Shown: positions 9,304 through 50,521 of the stretch, piece by piece
Layout: each line of letters begins with the position of its first letter
Numbering within the stretch: the first letter of the stretch is position 1
Origin: Centroberyx gerrardi
Lineage: Eukaryota > Chordata > Actinopteri > Beryciformes > Berycidae
Assembly: GCF_048128805.1 (NCBI RefSeq)
Contig: NC_136019.1
Coordinates: 15,999,881 to 16,063,880, forward strand
Direction of reading: 5' to 3'
DNA length: 64,000 nucleotides
The notes under the pieces: model-generated
Told to the model about the DNA's origin: nothing
The model's input: the letters and a program-made list of their open reading frames with translations, nothing else
The model's database searches: none
Translations under genes and position numbers: made by a program

Positions 9304-9640
9304 GTCAGTGACTTTTCTGTTTAACCCCTTGAACTCTGATTTTCCCCCTAAATTTCCCCTTAAGTAGCTCCAAAGTTAGAAATATTTTTTTTTCCCATAC
9401 TGTATGACTGTGTCACATACATATTCTGTATCTGCTCCTTCCAATGCTTATTGAATCTACAGCATGCATATATTGAGTGAAATATTCAAACTGCTTGCAC
9501 ATATCACTCTGGAAAACCCTTTGTGCTTAGCTTTTCTGCAACACAATAATGCTGCCCTTTTACTCTTTGTGTTGTACATGTTCATTTTAAAATTGCAAGG
9601 AATACATTACTTATTTTGAAATTATCTGTATTGCCCAAAG

Positions 9641-10012
9641 GTGCAGGTGGAGGGCAAGGCTGGCTGGGACATTGGGGTTGCCTTGGAAACAGTTGACAGG
9701 AAAGGCAACAGTGATGTCAGTCTGAGCAAAGGATTCTGCGCCCTGATGCTAAGGGGTGAGGAGTTCATAGCATGCAAGCAACCCCCAGTCAGGATTAATC
9801 TCTCCAAGAAGGCCCAGAAGGTGGGGGTGTTTGTAGATCACGAGGAGGGAGAGGTCCGTTTTTACGATGTCGGGAACAAGACCCATATCTACTCCTTTAC
9901 TGGTATGAGGTTTCCCAAGAAGAAGTTGCACCCTTACGTTAATCCCTGTGGCATATGTGAAGGCAAAAACTCAGCCCCCATGCTAATCACTCCTGTCATC
10001 CAGGACATTTAG
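9641..10012 (+). CDS. TRIM coding exon 8: SPRY domain and stop
   Basis: After acceptor TTGCCCAAAG the frame gives VQVEGKAGWDIGVALETVDR, then QKVGVFVDHEEGEVRFYDV, and ends GKNSAPMLITPVIQDI with TAG at 10010-10012. The VGVFVDxEEGxVxFYDV core and the SAPxxI end are typical of TRIM B30.2 domains, which bind the target protein. Confidence 0.88.
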   Translation: MQVEGKAGWDIGVALETVDRKGNSDVSLSKGFCALMLRGEEFIACKQPPVRINLSKKAQKVGVFVDHEEGEVRFYDVGNKTHIYSFTGMRFPKKKLHPYVNPCGICEGKNSAPMLITPVIQDI

Positions 10013-13323: not shown

Positions 13324-13436
13324 GACTCATATTTGAGGGTGGGATTATACTATACCAACCTATCAGCCTATTATGGACTTGTATTAGAGGGAGGGGTCAT
13401 AGTACACTAACCAATCAACATAAATACTATGGACTT
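13324..13436. repeat. Diverged tandem duplication upstream of syt4
   Basis: Two units of about 57 bp each run from GACT(C/T)(A/G)TATT to (A/T)(C/T)TATGGACTT. The second unit carries CCAAT at 13411-13415 and the TATA-like CATAAATA at 13419-13426, so it may contribute to the syt4 promoter. Confidence 0.45.
13411..13426 (+). promoter_or_regulatory. Possible syt4 core promoter (CCAAT, CATAAATA)
   Basis: CCAAT at 13411 and CATAAATA at 13419 lie about 630 bp upstream of the syt4 start codon, just before a (CA)n/(GA)n tract and a GC-rich leader. The spacing between the two motifs is unusually short for a classical CCAAT/TATA promoter, so this is tentative. Confidence 0.25.
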
Positions 13437-13458
13437 AAGTAAGGATGCACAGCACACA

Positions 13459-13461
<3 letters not shown>

Positions 13462-13545
<84 letters not shown>

Positions 13546-13566
13546 AGACAGAGAGAGAGAGAGACT
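13462..13566. repeat. (CA)n(GA)n compound microsatellite
   Basis: A (CA)n run to 13490 passes directly into (GA)n to about 13541, with a second interrupted GA run after GTCGGAGACA. It lies in or just upstream of the syt4 leader. Confidence 0.95.
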
Positions 13567-13729
13567 GAGTGTTTCCTCTCTCCCTTAACGGTCAATCGGG
13601 GAAATTGACAGCTCTGTTGTGCTGCTTCACCGGGGGCCCTGATATCACAGCCAGCCTCCGTCACTACTGCGTCAGCGCCGATGAACTCAGCGTTACCGGT
13701 AGGGAGGGGGAGGAGGAGGGAGTGGGTGA

Positions 13730-13732
<3 letters not shown>

Positions 13733-13767
<35 letters not shown>
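13733..13767. repeat. (GA)n microsatellite in syt4 leader
   Basis: About 17 GA units within the GC-rich 5' leader region of syt4. Confidence 0.95.
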
Positions 13768-13771
<4 letters not shown>

Positions 13772-14035
13772 CGGGGTGTTGCCGCCTCCGAGACACACTC
13801 ACGCATCGCAGAGTAACGGCAGCAGGGCGAGAACAGAGCATCCTTCTCCTCCCTCCATCCTCCTCTCTGGGAAAACAAGGGTTGCTTTTTGAATTATTGA
13901 AGCCGTACACAAACCTGTACATTATTAAACATAATCAAAGCCGACATATTGCGGAGATACCTCGACATCAAGAGACCCGAGTTGCCGTCGTTCGAGAGGA
14001 GAGGAGAGACATCCGTGTGAGACTGAGAAGAGCAT

Positions 14036-14056
14036 TTCAGCACCTCGGACAGCGAC
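14036..14056 (+). promoter_or_regulatory. RE1/NRSE-like REST binding site
   Basis: TTCAGCACCTCGGACAGCG at 14036-14054, followed by AC, matches the 21-bp REST/NRSF element at 19 of 21 positions (differences at 14045 and 14055). It ends one base before the syt4 start codon. REST silences neuronal genes in non-neuronal cells, and synaptotagmin-4 is neuronal. Confidence 0.8.
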
Positions 14057-14057
14057 C

Positions 14058-14091
14058 ATGGCTCCAATGGTGGCGGACGGGGCGCAGCTCG
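14058..14091 (+). CDS. syt4: syt4 coding exon 1: start codon and short N-terminus
   Basis: ATG in strong context (GACCATGG) opens MAPMVADGAQL. The exon ends in phase 1 at CTCG|GTAAGT. A tiny first coding exon beginning MAP matches the Syt4 pattern. Confidence 0.88.
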
Positions 14092-15373
14092 GTAAGTCAA
14101 AACACCGCCGGTTAATGTGTTTAAACCAGTGTGTGGGTGTGGGAGGTTGTTGGTGGTTGACTTGTTACTCCCCTTAAGTAACGCGTTACTCATTACTCGT
14201 TTCTCCTCCCAAAAGTATTGTCGTTACTTTACGCATTAACCTATCCATAGTAGCAGTAACGCTAATTCGTTGTTTTGGTTTTCCGTTACAACCTCCAAAA
14301 CTATCGGTTGCCTCCTGTCTTGCCTTCAAAAATAAGGACAATACAGTTTCATCACCTGTGAATGGTCAGGGAAGTAAATAGCGTTGATATCCAGTGTGTT
14401 CCTTTTACTGGATAAAATCAAAGTATTTGGGAATACTTCCACCTGGTAAACTTCAATTTCGCATCTAAGCTAGCTTAGTAGGGCGACGGCTAATAACTAA
14501 CGACTTGTTTTTCTTTTTTTTAGATGGGTAGCTAGCTAAATTATTACAGAACTTGGAATAGTAATTCGTTACACTACTCGTTACTGGGGAAAGCAATAGT
14601 ACTGTGTTGCCTGTTGTTAAATAGTATTCGTGGCTCCTAGCCCACACCGGTAAAGGCTGGGAAGCACCTGTTTCTTTTCTTTCTTTCTTTTCTCTTCGTT
14701 CAGCAGCTCAGCTCCCTCACCGCCCTCCCGTCGCCACAGCCATCTGTCTGTTGTTGTTGCCACGTAGAAAACCAATCCACCCAGGATGCTAGACTGAAAT
14801 ATTAATGGAAAGGGGACAGGAAAATAAATATGTACAAGCGCTGGGAAATAAAACTGTAATTATTTTACCATCTCTCCATTGCGCTCCCACGAATATAATT
14901 ATATGAAAGGCAGTCCCTTAAAAAAAGAACTACAGTAATCCTATTATAGGCCCAAGTTTTAGAGGGATGCTATACAATTATCACAGCAAAACTATATCCT
15001 TAAAGGTAATGCATAGGAATAATACAATGATACCATTGGAGGAAAAAATTCCATTAAGTGCGATTAGGTCACTATAAACACTAATGTGGAACACAGACAC
15101 ACCATAAGTGCCTATAGGAATATTATAGGAAAATGAAAATTATTTTTTGTTTGGTCCAGACATGGCACTTCCAGCACTATAGTCTCTCAGGCAATAATGC
15201 TATTATGTGAGATTTTTTAAAAAAAAATTATTTTTTTTATTTTTTTGTCAATAATGCTGTAGCAGTGCTGACCATCTGTAGTCTATGTGAATTGGTTTTC
15301 ACTGGATGAAACAGATTTGGTAGGCAGGAACATTGTCACTTTGTCACATGAGTGATGTCCTGCTGTGTGCAAG

Positions 15374-17325: not shown

Positions 17326-20300
17326 TGCACACGCAGAGATACACAAGCTTTAAGAGTGGTTACAGAGAAAATAAACAGTGAGATGTGCAGGTGGATTATT
17401 TATTCTCTCTCTTTCTCTCCTCTCCCTCTCTCTCTTTCTCTCTCTGTCTGTCTCTGTCTCCTCCTCTGTAGTGGAGGTGCCAGTGAGCGTTGCCGTGGTG
17501 AGTGTGTTCGGCCTGGTGTTCAGTGTATCAGCCTTTGCCTGGATCTGCTGTCAGCGTAAAAACACCAAATCCCAGAAGACACCTCCCTACAAGTTCGTGC
17601 ACATGCTCAAAGGGGTCGACATCTATCCCGAGAGCCTCAGTGGCAAGAAGAAGTTTGGTGCAGCCGGCACTCCAACTAACGACACCAGTAAAACTGACGT
17701 TAACGGAAACTGCCACACCACTTCGACGGTGACCCCTACCGGCACCGCTAAGCTGGCTTCAAGTCCAAACGGCTCCAGACAGGCTCTGCATCTGGACCTG
17801 GAGAAACGGGATCTGAATGGCAACTTCACCACCAAACCCTCCCACCACCACTTACAGCAGCAGAAGGTCCGGAGCTCCCCGGACCTGGAGCTGCCCTCTC
17901 CCCACACGGGGTTCACCCAACCTGGGGTGATGGACCGCCGTGACCTCCCCTCTCCCTCCAGCACCCTCTCCAGCCAGGCGCCCACACCGGCCGTGGACAA
18001 ACCCCAGGGAGAGGAGAGGGAGGGCGGGCTGGGGACCCTCCACTTCTCCCTGGAGTACCAGCCCGAGAGGAAGGCCTTCGTTGTCCATATCAAGGTACTG
18101 TGTGTGTTTAAGTGTGTGTTTAGATGTGTGTGTACGTGTGTGTGTGTGTGTGTGTGTGTGTTTGTGTGTTTGCTCATCTCTGAAAGATATTTATTTCAAG
18201 TTATTTATTCTTGTGTCTGTTTGTTTAGTCTTTCTCTTTTTGCTTTTGATATAAAGTATGAAGTGCAATTCAGTGAGTGTCATGAATACAATTTAGATTG
18301 ATTAATTGATTGATTGATTGATTGATCCATCCAGGAAGCCCATGGCCTGACTCCGACTGATGAGCAGTCGCTGACCTCTGACCCCTACATCAAGCTGACC
18401 CTGCTGCCAGAGAAAAAGCACCGGGTGAAGACCAGAGTGCTGAGGAAGACTCTGGACCCCGCCTTCGACGAGACCTTCAGCTTCTACGGGATCCCGCTGG
18501 TCAGAGTGTCGGAGCTGGCGCTCCACTTCATGGTGCTGAGCTTTGATAGGTTCTCCCGCGATGAGGTCATCGGGGAGACCCTCGTCCCATTGGCCGGGAT
18601 CGACCTGTCGGAGGGGCGTGTCCTGATGAGCCGGGAGATCATCAAGAGGAATGTCAAGGTAAGAGCTGGAACAAACCAAAGTTTAAACCCTTTCAGGCTT
18701 GGTATTTGAATTGATATCTTCAGCGTCTTTGTTTTTTAACTATCATCAGTTATCAGTTTCCTTATTGGAATTTGCAATCATTGTGATTAGATTCATGACA
18801 CAAACTGAAACCAATTTTACAATGAGCAAACTCTAAATTGATTCCAGAGATCTTTACCTTTGTTCGGTTTAACAATTCCAGTAACACTCCAACAAAATGT
18901 ATATGTACCAGCAAATTCAAATTCCAATATTGTTCCAATAATGCCTCATCGTTACCTTCATTATAACAACAATGCCTGCGTCATTAGTCCCTAACATAAT
19001 CTACTCTAGAAAAATATAAGAATTTGCATAATTTTACTAACGTGCAGTTCCAGTATTATAATATTAATCACAACACATTCATGCTGAGAGCCATTTATCA
19101 CTTAAAATATAATGGTATTTAAATAATAGAGCTTGCCACTCATCTAAATGCAAATGTGACATAATATTAACATATTGCTTGACACCAATGACCGGGCAGA
19201 AATTTTCTATAATACTTTTAAGTCCTCATCATTGGTAAACCCTGCATCTTGGATGTAGGTTGTCCATTTTTAACTCTAATCATTAAAGCTATTGCTGTTT
19301 GCATCATATATTATGTTGCATTCAGTGTAGCAGGAATGCTTTTAAAAGCATGTAAATATTCTTTATTCACACTTGCATCATTGTCTAGCTAAAGACGTGA
19401 AGCTTCAAATTAATTGGACATTCAGACATATAGTCATTGTATTTTTATGTATTTTGCAATTGCAATCTGGGAATTCACTTTTATTGTATCCATGTCCAGT
19501 TGGCTTGCAAAGTATTTTACATTAGTACTTTGCAAGCCAACTGGGATGTGAGAGAGTGGGCGTATTCCTCTGCAGAGACAGAGAGATGAGATCTGTTGCA
19601 TCAGTATAGATCTGTAAGCTGATATTCTGCTCAAATGGACTGCTGTGTGGTTAGATACATAAAAGCCTTAGGCCTATAGCTTCACTGTTTTTTCTTTTTA
19701 TTTGTTTCGGCATTTTCGCTTCTGTTTATTATTTGTACCAAGAAAGTTTCAACCAAACACTAGTTTCAAAAATTCTGTTTGTCAATCTGAGGTTGAATTT
19801 TCAATTTTCAATTTTCAATTTTTTGAGATACAATCTACATCTCATACATCTCAATCTACATCTCATAGCAGTGATTGGAAATATGGCAGAGACCGATATA
19901 TTCACATTAATTTATACATTTGTTTATACATGCATTTACTGGTACATTTCCAGTGTGTTTAATGCATTTAATAGGCGAAATGTGAGATCATATAGAAGAG
20001 TTTCCTACCAAAATACCTGCTAATTAGTAAGTAAAGGTCTCAGACTTGCTAATAATCTCAATTATAATCAGTTGTGTGTTTAATTTTCAAGCAAGCAATC
20101 ATTTTGTCATTTGAAGGTCTTCATATGCAGACTGTTCTTGTACATCTCCGGTCTGAAACAGCTTCACTACATTACAGAGTAGTGCTGGGACGGCTGATGA
20201 GAAAGAGAATATCACGTGTCCATTTGTACATTCCCAATAGTGTATTGAATAGAGGGAGTGATATCTACACCACTCCATTATAGATCTGTGGGCTGATACT

Positions 20301-22413: not shown

Positions 22414-24257
22414 ACATATACAAATGTGCTTATTGCCATAGTAACCAGGCCCAGAGGTGTGAGATCCTGTTAAGTGTGATCGCAGCAGCCAAGGTGTCAA
22501 CCCTCGAGTGTGAGTGTGTGTGTGTGTGCTGGATATAGTACAGTGGGGTGCTTCTCACTGGCATATTTATGATATGATGTGAATTGAGTCCATAAGCAGG
22601 TGATGATTATTTTGTTGCCATGACACCAATGACATGGTCAGCACTGCCACCAATTATAACCAATTCAATTTTTCACTGCAGTGTTGTTGTACAAAGTGTA
22701 CAAATATAAGCGTACAAAATATTAGGATGATCTGTAAGTTTCAATGAAGAGAATCCAGGTGAAAGCTGTGATCTTTTATTAAAAGACCCATTATAAACCT
22801 ATTAAATCTTCTTTAATCATGAAGAGGAGATGTAGATGAACAGGAGGTGAAAGCTTAAAGGTTTTTAAGCCTTAGGGCAACTGAGACATGAGCTCAACAA
22901 TATATTAGGAAAGTGGTCTTCATATTTTATACACTATGTGTACATAAAGGGACAAGAAATTGTCAAAAATTCAAAATAAACATCATTTGGCTCTCTTTAG
23001 CCAGCTCCCTAAGATGCTTTTGGGTATCTCACTGGATGAAAATGTCTCAAAATCTCTTCTCCTCCTTTCTCCTCTGTTCTTTTCCCCTCTGCCATCACTC
23101 TTCCCCCACTTCGTATCACTCTCTTTCTCACCTCCACTCCCTCTCCCTCTCCCACCACCTCTCACCTCATCTCCTCCTCCTTTTTCTTCTCTGTGCCCTC
23201 ATCCCTCCCTCCTAAATTTACCCTCCCCTCCCCTCCCCTCCCCCCTCCCTCCCTCCCTCCATCTCTCTGTCCGTCCCCAGAAGTCATCGGGTCGCGGCGA
23301 GCTGCTGCTGTCACTGTGCTACCAGTCCACCACCAACACCCTGACCGTGGTCGTCCTCAAGGCCCGCCACCTGCCCAAGACCGACAACGGACCTACAGGT
23401 ACGCACGCTCAGAGTTCCAGCAGTTCCCTTCGAAACACAATCCACGAGATCACTGCTTACATGCCTGAGGGCACGCACGGACCATACACACACACACACA
23501 AATGCACGTGCACATACACACGCACGCTTGCTTCACATAACAACAAATAGATGAGGCCAAATTGATTTTTGTCCTTCCTGTCGCACAGCCCAGACTACTT
23601 ATGATGCTGTGATAGTGGCCATAATGACACGGCCACCGCACTAAAGTAATCTGATCTGGATGTGATAGAGAGCACTTTCGTGACAAGCACACCCACACAC
23701 ACACACACACTCACACACACACACACCACACGCACACACACAAGCAAAGTGTTTACACAGCCAGCCCCTCCGTCCTCGTCACTACCATCCATCATTTCCG
23801 CTTTATTGATCGCCATATCGATCTGGCCCAGGAATAATATGCCACTCTCAGACTGCTTCAGGGATGGATACTTACCATGCCTTCTTTTCTCCTTCCTTCC
23901 TTCCCTCCTTCCTTCGTTTCTTCTCCTCCTCGTCTAGACCCGTACGTCAAGGTGAACCTGTACCAGGGGAAGAAGCGCGTGTGCAAGAAGAAGACCCACG
24001 TGAAGAAGTGCGTCCCCAACCCGGTGTTCAACGAGCTGTTCGTCTTCGACCTGCCCTCCGACGAGGGCCTGCGGGACACCAGCGTGGAGCTGCTGCTGCT
24101 GGACTCAGAGAGGGGCGACTCGCGCTGCCCCAACCCCGTCCTGGGGCGCCTGGTCCTGGGCACGGCGGCGGCAGGCACCCCCGGCGAGCACTGGAGGGAG
24201 ATCTGCGACCACCCGCGCCGCCAGATCGCCAAGTGGCACGCCATGTCGGAGGATTAG
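14058..24257 (+). CDS. syt4: Synaptotagmin-4, five coding exons
   Basis: Coding exons 14058-14091, 17472-18094, 18335-18658, 23281-23398 and 23938-24257 total 1419 nt and encode 472 residues; mammalian SYT4 is about 425, the extra lying mainly in the linker. A short lumenal N-terminus (MAPMVADGAQLVEVP) precedes one membrane span (about residues 15-38, ending AWICCQRK). A conserved juxtamembrane stretch (TPPYKFVHMLKGVDIYPESL), the Syt4-specific LHLDLEKRDLNGNF, then C2A and C2B follow. Syt4 is a vesicle membrane protein of neurons and endocrine cells that modulates dense-core vesicle exocytosis. In C2A the third loop reads LSFDRFSRDE, retaining the Asp-to-Ser change known in Syt4/Syt11 that weakens calcium binding. 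The Syt4-like C2B start (KSSGRGEL) favours Syt4 over Syt11. Confidence 0.93.
15377..15417. repeat. (TC)n microsatellite in syt4 intron 1
   Basis: About 20 TC units. Confidence 0.95.
17263..17322. repeat. (CA)30 microsatellite before syt4 exon 2
   Basis: Thirty CA units about 150 bp upstream of exon 2, complementary to the GT-rich run that follows the exon. Confidence 0.95.
17472..18094 (+). CDS. syt4: syt4 coding exon 2: transmembrane segment and linker
   Basis: After a long CT-rich acceptor tract ending TAG at 17471, the exon encodes the span VSVAVVSVFGLVFSVSAFAW, a cysteine pair ICCQRK (likely palmitoylated), the basic juxtamembrane region, the Ser/Pro/Thr-rich linker with a short His run, and the first C2A strand (LGTLHFSLEYQPERKAFVVH). 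It ends at CAAG|GTACTG, phase 0. Confidence 0.92.
18099..18170. repeat. (GT)n-rich run after syt4 exon 2
   Basis: Interrupted GT repeat starting four bases inside intron 2. Confidence 0.9.
18335..18658 (+). CDS. syt4: syt4 coding exon 3: most of C2A
   Basis: The 108-codon exon gives EAHGLTPTDEQSLTSDPYIK, then RVLRKTLDPAFDETFSFYGI and LSFDRFSRDEVIGE, ending REIIKRNVK. Loop acidic residues are kept except the Ser in SFDRFS, as expected for Syt4. Acceptor ATCCAG and donor AAG|GTAAGA are both phase 0. Confidence 0.92.
19496..19544 (+). repeat. Perfect 19-bp hairpin in syt4 intron 3
   Basis: CCAGTTGGCTTGCAAAGTA at 19496-19514 is followed by an 11-base loop and its exact reverse complement at 19526-19544. 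Confidence 0.9.
19540..20870. repeat. Degenerate tandem array in syt4 intron 3
   Basis: Two motifs recur: a form of TATAGATCTGTGGGCTGAT near 19605, 20280, 20430, 20700 and 20830, and a form of TGTACATTTCCAGG near 19940, 20155, 20230, 20370, 20515, 20665 and 20790. Copies are strongly diverged, with spacing of roughly 130-160 bp in the later part. Confidence 0.65.
21769..21805. repeat. (GT)n microsatellite
   Basis: About 18 GT units in syt4 intron 3. Confidence 0.95.
22144..22168. repeat. (AGAAT)5 pentanucleotide repeat
   Basis: Five AGAAT units in syt4 intron 3, the reverse-complement motif of the longer ATTCT array at 46041. Confidence 0.95.
22363..22409. repeat. (CA)n microsatellite
   Basis: About 23 CA units in syt4 intron 3. 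Confidence 0.95.
23281..23398 (+). CDS. syt4: syt4 coding exon 4: start of C2B
   Basis: After a pure pyrimidine tract ending GTCCCCAG, the exon reads KSSGRGELLLSLCYQSTTNT and then LTVVVLKARHLPKTDNGPT. It ends in phase 1 at ACAG|GTACGC. The sequence is close to mammalian Syt4 and unlike Syt11 (which starts C2B with CISRGEL, from memory). Confidence 0.92.
23938..24257 (+). CDS. syt4: syt4 coding exon 5: rest of C2B and stop
   Basis: Acceptor TCGTCTAG ends at 23937. The exon continues DPYVKVNLYQGKKRVCKKKT, then VKKCVPNPVFNELFVFDLP and ends RRQIAKWHAMSED with TAG. The polybasic KKRVCKKKT strand and the WHxL-type end (here WHAM) are synaptotagmin features. The third C2B loop (LLLDSERGDSRCPNPVLG) looks about three residues longer than in mammals. 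The exon is very GC-rich. Confidence 0.92.
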
Positions 24258-36730: not shown

Positions 36731-36860
36731 AAACCCCCAAACCCAAAACTGTGGTGAAGCCTGACACCTAATGGTTAAAAGCATGCTACTGAAGTGGCCA
36801 GGTGCCAGGTTTTTTACCATTAGGTGTCACGCTTCAGCACAGATTTGGGTTTGGGGTTTA
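36731..36860. repeat. Foldback inverted repeat
   Basis: Left arm 36731-36780 (AACCCCCAAACCCAAAACTG onward to GACACCTAATGG) is the near-perfect reverse complement of the right arm at about 36811-36860. A loop of about 30 bases separates them. It resembles a small foldback MITE. Confidence 0.75.
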
Positions 36861-49977: not shown

Positions 49978-50210
49978 TGGCCTAAAGCAGTTGACATTTC
50001 CATTGTAGGCATTGACCTGATGCTCTTATTCAAAAGCACAAGCATCAAAGTACCTTGCAACAGCAGGATTCTACACTTTATTTTGTATGGGAGACTCTAG
50101 TTACAAGGCGCCTCTAACCTTGGAAAGTGTTTGTTACGTGGAGATGCTGGGGATTGAACCCAGGACCTCATACATGCGAAGCATGCGCTCTACCACTGAG
50201 CTACATTCCC
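49978..50210 (-). mobile_element. tRNA-Ala-headed SINE-like unit, left arm of inverted pair
   Basis: Read on the minus strand, a tRNA-Ala-like head (50210-50139) is followed by a body of about 110 bp and a GAATAAGAGCATCAGGTCAA tail. The whole unit is similar, in inverted orientation, to 50450-50702. Confidence 0.6.
50139..50210 (-). tRNA. tRNA-Ala (CGC)-like, possibly a SINE head
   Basis: The 72-base minus-strand sequence folds as a cloverleaf with D stem GCTC/GAGC, anticodon loop TTCGCAT (anticodon CGC) and T stem CTGGG/CCCAG. It keeps the G3:U70 pair that identifies alanine tRNAs but has an A4:C69 mismatch in the acceptor stem. No TTTT terminator follows closely; the first is about 100 bases on, inside the repeat body. 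That makes a SINE head at least as likely as a working gene. Confidence 0.65.
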
Positions 50211-50449: not shown

Positions 50450-50521
50450 GGGGATGTAGCTCAGTGGTAGAGCGCATGCTTAGCATGTATGAGGTCCTGG
50501 GTTCAATCCCCAGCATCTCCA
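50450..50521 (+). tRNA. tRNA-Ala (AGC)
   Basis: A 72-base sequence with a fully paired cloverleaf: acceptor GGGGATG/CATCTCC including G3:U70, D arm GCTCAGTGGTAGAGC, anticodon loop TTAGCAT (AGC), T arm CTGGGTTCAATCCCCAG. Internal promoter boxes A and B are intact. No T4 terminator is seen within about 200 bases downstream, and the flank looks like a SINE body, so it may be the head of a SINE rather than a stand-alone gene. Confidence 0.75.

Follow-up and report, generated by a model that had tools for sequence, protein, structure and literature searches.

The question raised by this locus is whether the 21-bp motif that lies directly against the syt4 start codon of Centroberyx gerrardi is a genuine site for the repressor REST, and what its position next to that codon means. 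In the window, i.e., the whole 64-kb stretch of DNA analysed, positions 14036-14056 of the forward strand, which is also the strand of syt4, read TTCAGCACCTCGGACAGCGAC, and 19 of these 21 letters are identical to the canonical RE1/NRSE, TTCAGCACCACGGACAGCGCC. The two mismatches fall at position 10 (A to T) and position 20 (C to A); the core, which is defined as positions 2-9 and 12-17 in PMC1794552, is identical at 14 of 14 positions. The site is composed of a left half (14036-14044), a 2-bp TC spacer (14045-14046) and a right half (14047-14056), and thus has the bipartite 9+10 architecture with a 2-bp linker described for the canonical element (PMC4777549), from which it differs at positions 10 and 20 and in terminating one base 5′ of a start codon. 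That single base is the C at 14057, and the ATG occupies 14058-14060. Both the 19-position match and the one-base distance from the ATG, as claimed in the initial annotation, were confirmed by direct reading and by script.

The motif stands far above the background of the window. A pattern search allowing up to three mismatches on both strands retrieved this one site, and no match at all in 100 dinucleotide shuffles; the chance of finding an RE1 with at most two mismatches in the window is about 6e-5 (1954/4^21 x about 128,000 positions), an estimate by hand arithmetic that assumes uniform composition and considers this one motif alone. Scoring with a REST matrix, proposed as a check together with the initial annotation, gave a clear result in favour of the site. 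Table 1 of PMC1794552 prints human NRSEs in 16 rows, of which 14 are distinct; the matrix was derived from the first 21 of the 22 printed bases of these 14, with uniform background. The syt4 site scores 28.2 bits, against 32.4 bits for the consensus and 17.7-31.5 bits for the training sites. The matrix is small, home-made and includes weak sites, so that absolute bits are rough and do not stand for a published threshold, and the informative quantity is the gap to the second-best site of the window, which scores 13.1 bits (window mean -32.3, sd 9.6). Additional or split half-sites were also considered, and the window yielded just one unconvincing pair of half-sites with one mismatch, 35 bp apart, at 36833.

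The ATG at 14058 opens a complete syt4 frame of five coding exons and 472 amino acids, with GT donors and AG acceptors; the model is based solely on the reading frame, the splice letters and the known SYT4 sequence. All exons are on the forward strand: exon 1 (14058-14091) encodes MAPMVADGAQL, ends in phase 1 and is followed by a GTAAGT donor at 14092, as established by scripts; exon 2 (17472-18094), supported by an own-genome exon match, contains the transmembrane segment and the linker, with the topology assigned by eye; exon 3 (18335-18658) encodes most of C2A, recognized by Pfam as C2 and matching the synaptotagmin IV structure 1ugk; exon 4 (23281-23398) encodes the start of C2B, and exon 5 (23938-24257, stop included) the rest of it, matching the synaptotagmin IV structure 1w15. 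Pfam identifies two C2 stretches in the 472-residue product, and its best two PDB matches are 1w15 and 1ugk; with its pair of C2 domains, for which synaptotagmin IV is the closest match, and a hydrophobic segment near the N-terminus, assigned by eye, the protein has the features of synaptotagmin 4. A protein search of the own genome placed the syt4 exons on C23 at 85-99% identity, and pieces at 51-67% identity on C19 and C12, which we take to be syt11-type paralogues. A second syt4 copy was looked for among the 52 own-genome matches and discarded, identity outside the gene itself being 26-67%. No RE1 was present in 19.8 kb on the 5′ side of either syt11-like locus, searched as two adjoining 9.9-kb stretches each (best 14/21 on C19 and 13/21 on C12); the first exons of these loci were not placed, which makes the contrast between syt4 and syt11 a weak one. 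The C2B coding region of syt4 is split by an intron (23399-23937) between KTDNGPT and DPYVKV; mammalian Syt4 is not known to have an intron at this position.

The gene adjoined by the motif is of the neuronal or neuroendocrine kind, with a neuronal and secretory role (PMC2573930, PMC4639699), and its control by REST is already well established in mammals, an NRSE having been called in the frog gene as well; the initial annotation does not mention this. In mouse ES cells, tiled ChIP-chip revealed REST enrichment confined to the Syt4 RE1, and dominant-negative REST induced Syt4 (PMC2573930); SYT4 is one of 15 known REST targets, all of which were bound in at least 14 of 16 human cell types (PMC4055426). 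Human, mouse and frog share 111 putative REST targets, 57 of them supported by ChIP-seq and syt4 among these (PMC4430910), so the evidence from orthologues is at the level of the gene in these three species. Syt4 is also counted among the exocytosis genes with a functional RE-1 in beta cells (PMC5323410, citing Martin et al. 2008), its log2FC is -10.56 in hrPC12 vs wtPC12 cells, where “hr” is read as high REST (PMC4639699), and its expression is raised in the Rest-knockout mouse lens (PMC5025245). When mouse neurons were hyperactive, Syt4 mRNA rose less, not more, in the presence of a REST decoy, and the rise of SYT4 protein did not change (PMC8639147), which indicates that the action of REST on Syt4 is context dependent. 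As for fish, zebrafish transgenes with consensus NRSEs showed neural-restricted expression (PMC3529185), and gel shifts showed binding of fugu NRSF protein to an RE1-competed probe (PMC4777549), so the RE1 code works with fish. Mouse and human Syt4 carry an RE1 that is REST-bound (PMC2573930, PMC4055426), whereas occupancy of the fish site is predicted; the zebrafish constructs contained the same motif as artificial tandem sites placed upstream (PMC3529185), whereas the syt4 RE1 is endogenous and lies at the start codon.

The two departures from the consensus are ordinary variants in the own genome of C. gerrardi. The pattern NTCAGCACCNNGGACAGNGNC, searched over 778,876,752 bases (779 Mb, 278 contigs), had 248 RE1-core matches, 128 forward and 120 reverse, and the reversed control pattern had none. 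A comparison set was derived from 100 of the 248 matches (contigs C1-C11), giving 94 loci, with two four-copy tandem arrays counted as one each and the site of the window not included. Among the matches listed, 7 of the 94 loci have T at position 10, 31 have A at position 20 and 79 have T at position 1; the same matches include a site, C4:13320526, whose 20 letters at positions 2-21 are those of the syt4 RE1.

A rest gene is assumed to be present in C. gerrardi, as in vertebrate biology generally. The best explanation, to which we give a probability of about 0.92, is that the syt4 site is a genuine canonical RE1/NRSE, through which REST would silence the gene outside neurons; the element is very probably functional. 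The prediction of direct REST repression through a canonical RE1, made in the initial annotation, is therefore well supported, given the complete syt4 gene model, the score of the motif, the status of Syt4 as a mammalian REST target and the frog NRSE. According to this explanation, the zinc-finger repressor would bind the 21 bp in non-neuronal and progenitor cells and recruit corepressors, silencing the CpG-rich promoter region in which the RE1 is contained, while in neurons and neuroendocrine cells syt4 would be freed from repression once REST is lost. The region around the RE1 (13600-14599) has a CpG observed/expected ratio of 0.61-1.01 per 200 bp vs 0.39 for the window; there is no ATG between 13681 and 14058, nor a TATAWA on the forward strand at 13401-14300. 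The motif evidence supports REST control of syt4 in a ray-finned fish, beside the evidence from mammals and frog.

The placement of the site required a separate survey, for which the flanks of the 94 RE1 loci were fetched. An ATG in the sense direction lies 0-12 bases downstream in 10 of the 94 loci, among the matches listed. Gaps of 1-3 bases occur at L118, L060, L035, L055 and L117, with frames of 6, 29, 3, 18 and 1 codons, respectively, and a GTRAGT donor is absent from the inside of all five frames; being short and devoid of this donor, they make unconvincing starts. The gap is 5 bases at L061, L095 and L101 (frames of 2, 18 and 28 codons). Candidate coding starts are L032, with a gap of 8 bases and a frame of 86 codons, and L067, with a gap of 11 bases and a 112-codon frame that has a signal-peptide-like beginning; no Pfam family was above the cut-off for either frame. 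A stricter genome-wide search for TTCAGCACCNNGGACAGCGNC followed by ATGG within 12 bases gave four matches and no match with reversed controls: apart from syt4 itself, these are three sites whose frames soon reach a stop or enter CT repeats. Thus, among the 94 sampled loci and the four matches of the strict search, syt4 alone has a convincing coding start at a gap of three bases or less.

The initial annotation had called the placement unusual, and this is half right. Packing against a start codon is distinctive, as one strict site in four is at a convincing coding start; promoter-proximal REST sites, however, are common, 51% of REST peaks in human T cells and 41% in neurons being located between 5 kb upstream and 1 kb downstream of a TSS (PMC4055426). 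The tight packing is the sole unusual feature of the syt4 RE1. A limited literature search, which also covered start-codon and untranslated-region RE1s, found no earlier report, in the text accessible, of an RE1 lying directly against the start codon of syt4; PMC4560861 places its NRSE in a promoter, from -383 to -363, the accessible parts of PMC8062533 and PMC10605157 give no RE1 position for syt4, and three strings of 12-13 letters from the human or mouse syt4 leader led to no SYT4 paper, as judged by titles and the beginning of abstracts.

Since the RE1 ends one base 5′ of the start codon, it also belongs to the initiation context, GCGACCATGG (14052-14061, forward strand), which includes its last five bases. 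The Kozak rule demands a purine at position -3 of the start codon; in the sequence as read, the A at 14055 occupies position 20 of the RE1 and at the same time Kozak -3, so that one base is found in both roles. Position 20 would then be read twice, as a position tolerant for REST and as the -3 purine. An interpretation going beyond this, which we consider rather doubtful, is that in fish syt4 the RE1 is fused with the context of translation start into a single, overlapping element. REST binding and efficient initiation would then have bases in common, position 20 would be kept as a purine by the Kozak requirement, silencing of transcription would have co-evolved with the start of translation, and REST would cover the DNA up to the start codon. 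With A frequent at position 20 elsewhere, the shared base is consistent with a joint constraint without proving one. If the spacing between RE1 and ATG were old, the syt4 start would hold a long-lived dual-use element. The tight overlap offers a clean case for studying the mutual tolerance of a 21-bp protein-binding site and an initiation context.

An alternative that we regard as probable for the placement is that the RE1 is real, its abutment with the ATG incidental and the shared base a coincidence; this narrows the best explanation and leaves its core intact. REST works from many positions near promoters, the distances between NRSEs and genes vary widely (PMC1794552), and the A found at position 20 in 31 of the 94 other RE1s, among the matches listed, implies that no Kozak explanation is needed for it. 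Nothing decisive opposes an incidental abutment, as the one convincing coding start in four strict ATGG-proximal matches speaks of rarity, not of selection.

A different proposal, which appears improbable, is that the motif has a second function in the mRNA, where it would modulate initiation as an element of the leader. Of the 22 bases that precede the ATG, the RE1 makes up 21, and it would be inside the leader of any mRNA that starts translation at 14058 with an unspliced leader longer than 22 nt. Fold prediction for the leader, however, gives nothing remarkable (z -1.09), 28 of 200 shuffles being as good, and the accessible text of the literature examined contains no such role for an RE1. 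Still less probable is that the TTTCAG where the RE1 begins serves as a splice acceptor, so that the leader would be longer and part of the motif intronic: the element does open with TTCAG and has a T immediately 5′, but the upstream sequence, GAGACTGAGAAGAGCATTTCAG, lacks a pyrimidine tract. Finally, chance resemblance devoid of REST function is hardly credible against 0 of 100 shuffles at three mismatches, 15 bits over the next site of the window, an established REST target gene and a genome strongly enriched for the motif (248 vs 0).

Other features were observed around the gene and at the sampled loci. CA/GA microsatellites are present at about 13453-13565 and 13732-13768, the first just upstream of the CpG-rich region that precedes syt4 and the second within it, and length polymorphism next to the promoter is possible. 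Upstream of syt4 and on the same strand, an open frame at 9620-10012 contains a SPRY domain (E 1.8e-17) and is presumably TRIM/B30.2-like; two divergent tRNA genes, 50139-50210 on the reverse and 50450-50521 on the forward strand, are about 240 bp apart (Rfam). At L067 (G000:C5:27914420-27915820), the RE1 on the reverse strand reads TTCAGCACCATGGACAGTGAC and is 11 bases 5′ of the ATG; it may be another RE1 close to a start codon, in this case that of a secreted protein. Two loci, L065 (G000:C5:27400140-27401540) and L079 (G000:C6:31114150-31115550), are tandem arrays, each with four core-perfect RE1-like copies and further near copies, spaced by 51 or 84 bp in the former and by 36 or 72 bp in the latter. 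Human NSF has four NRSEs within 100 bp (PMC1794552), and minisatellites that carry RE1s might serve as sponges for REST or as strong silencers.
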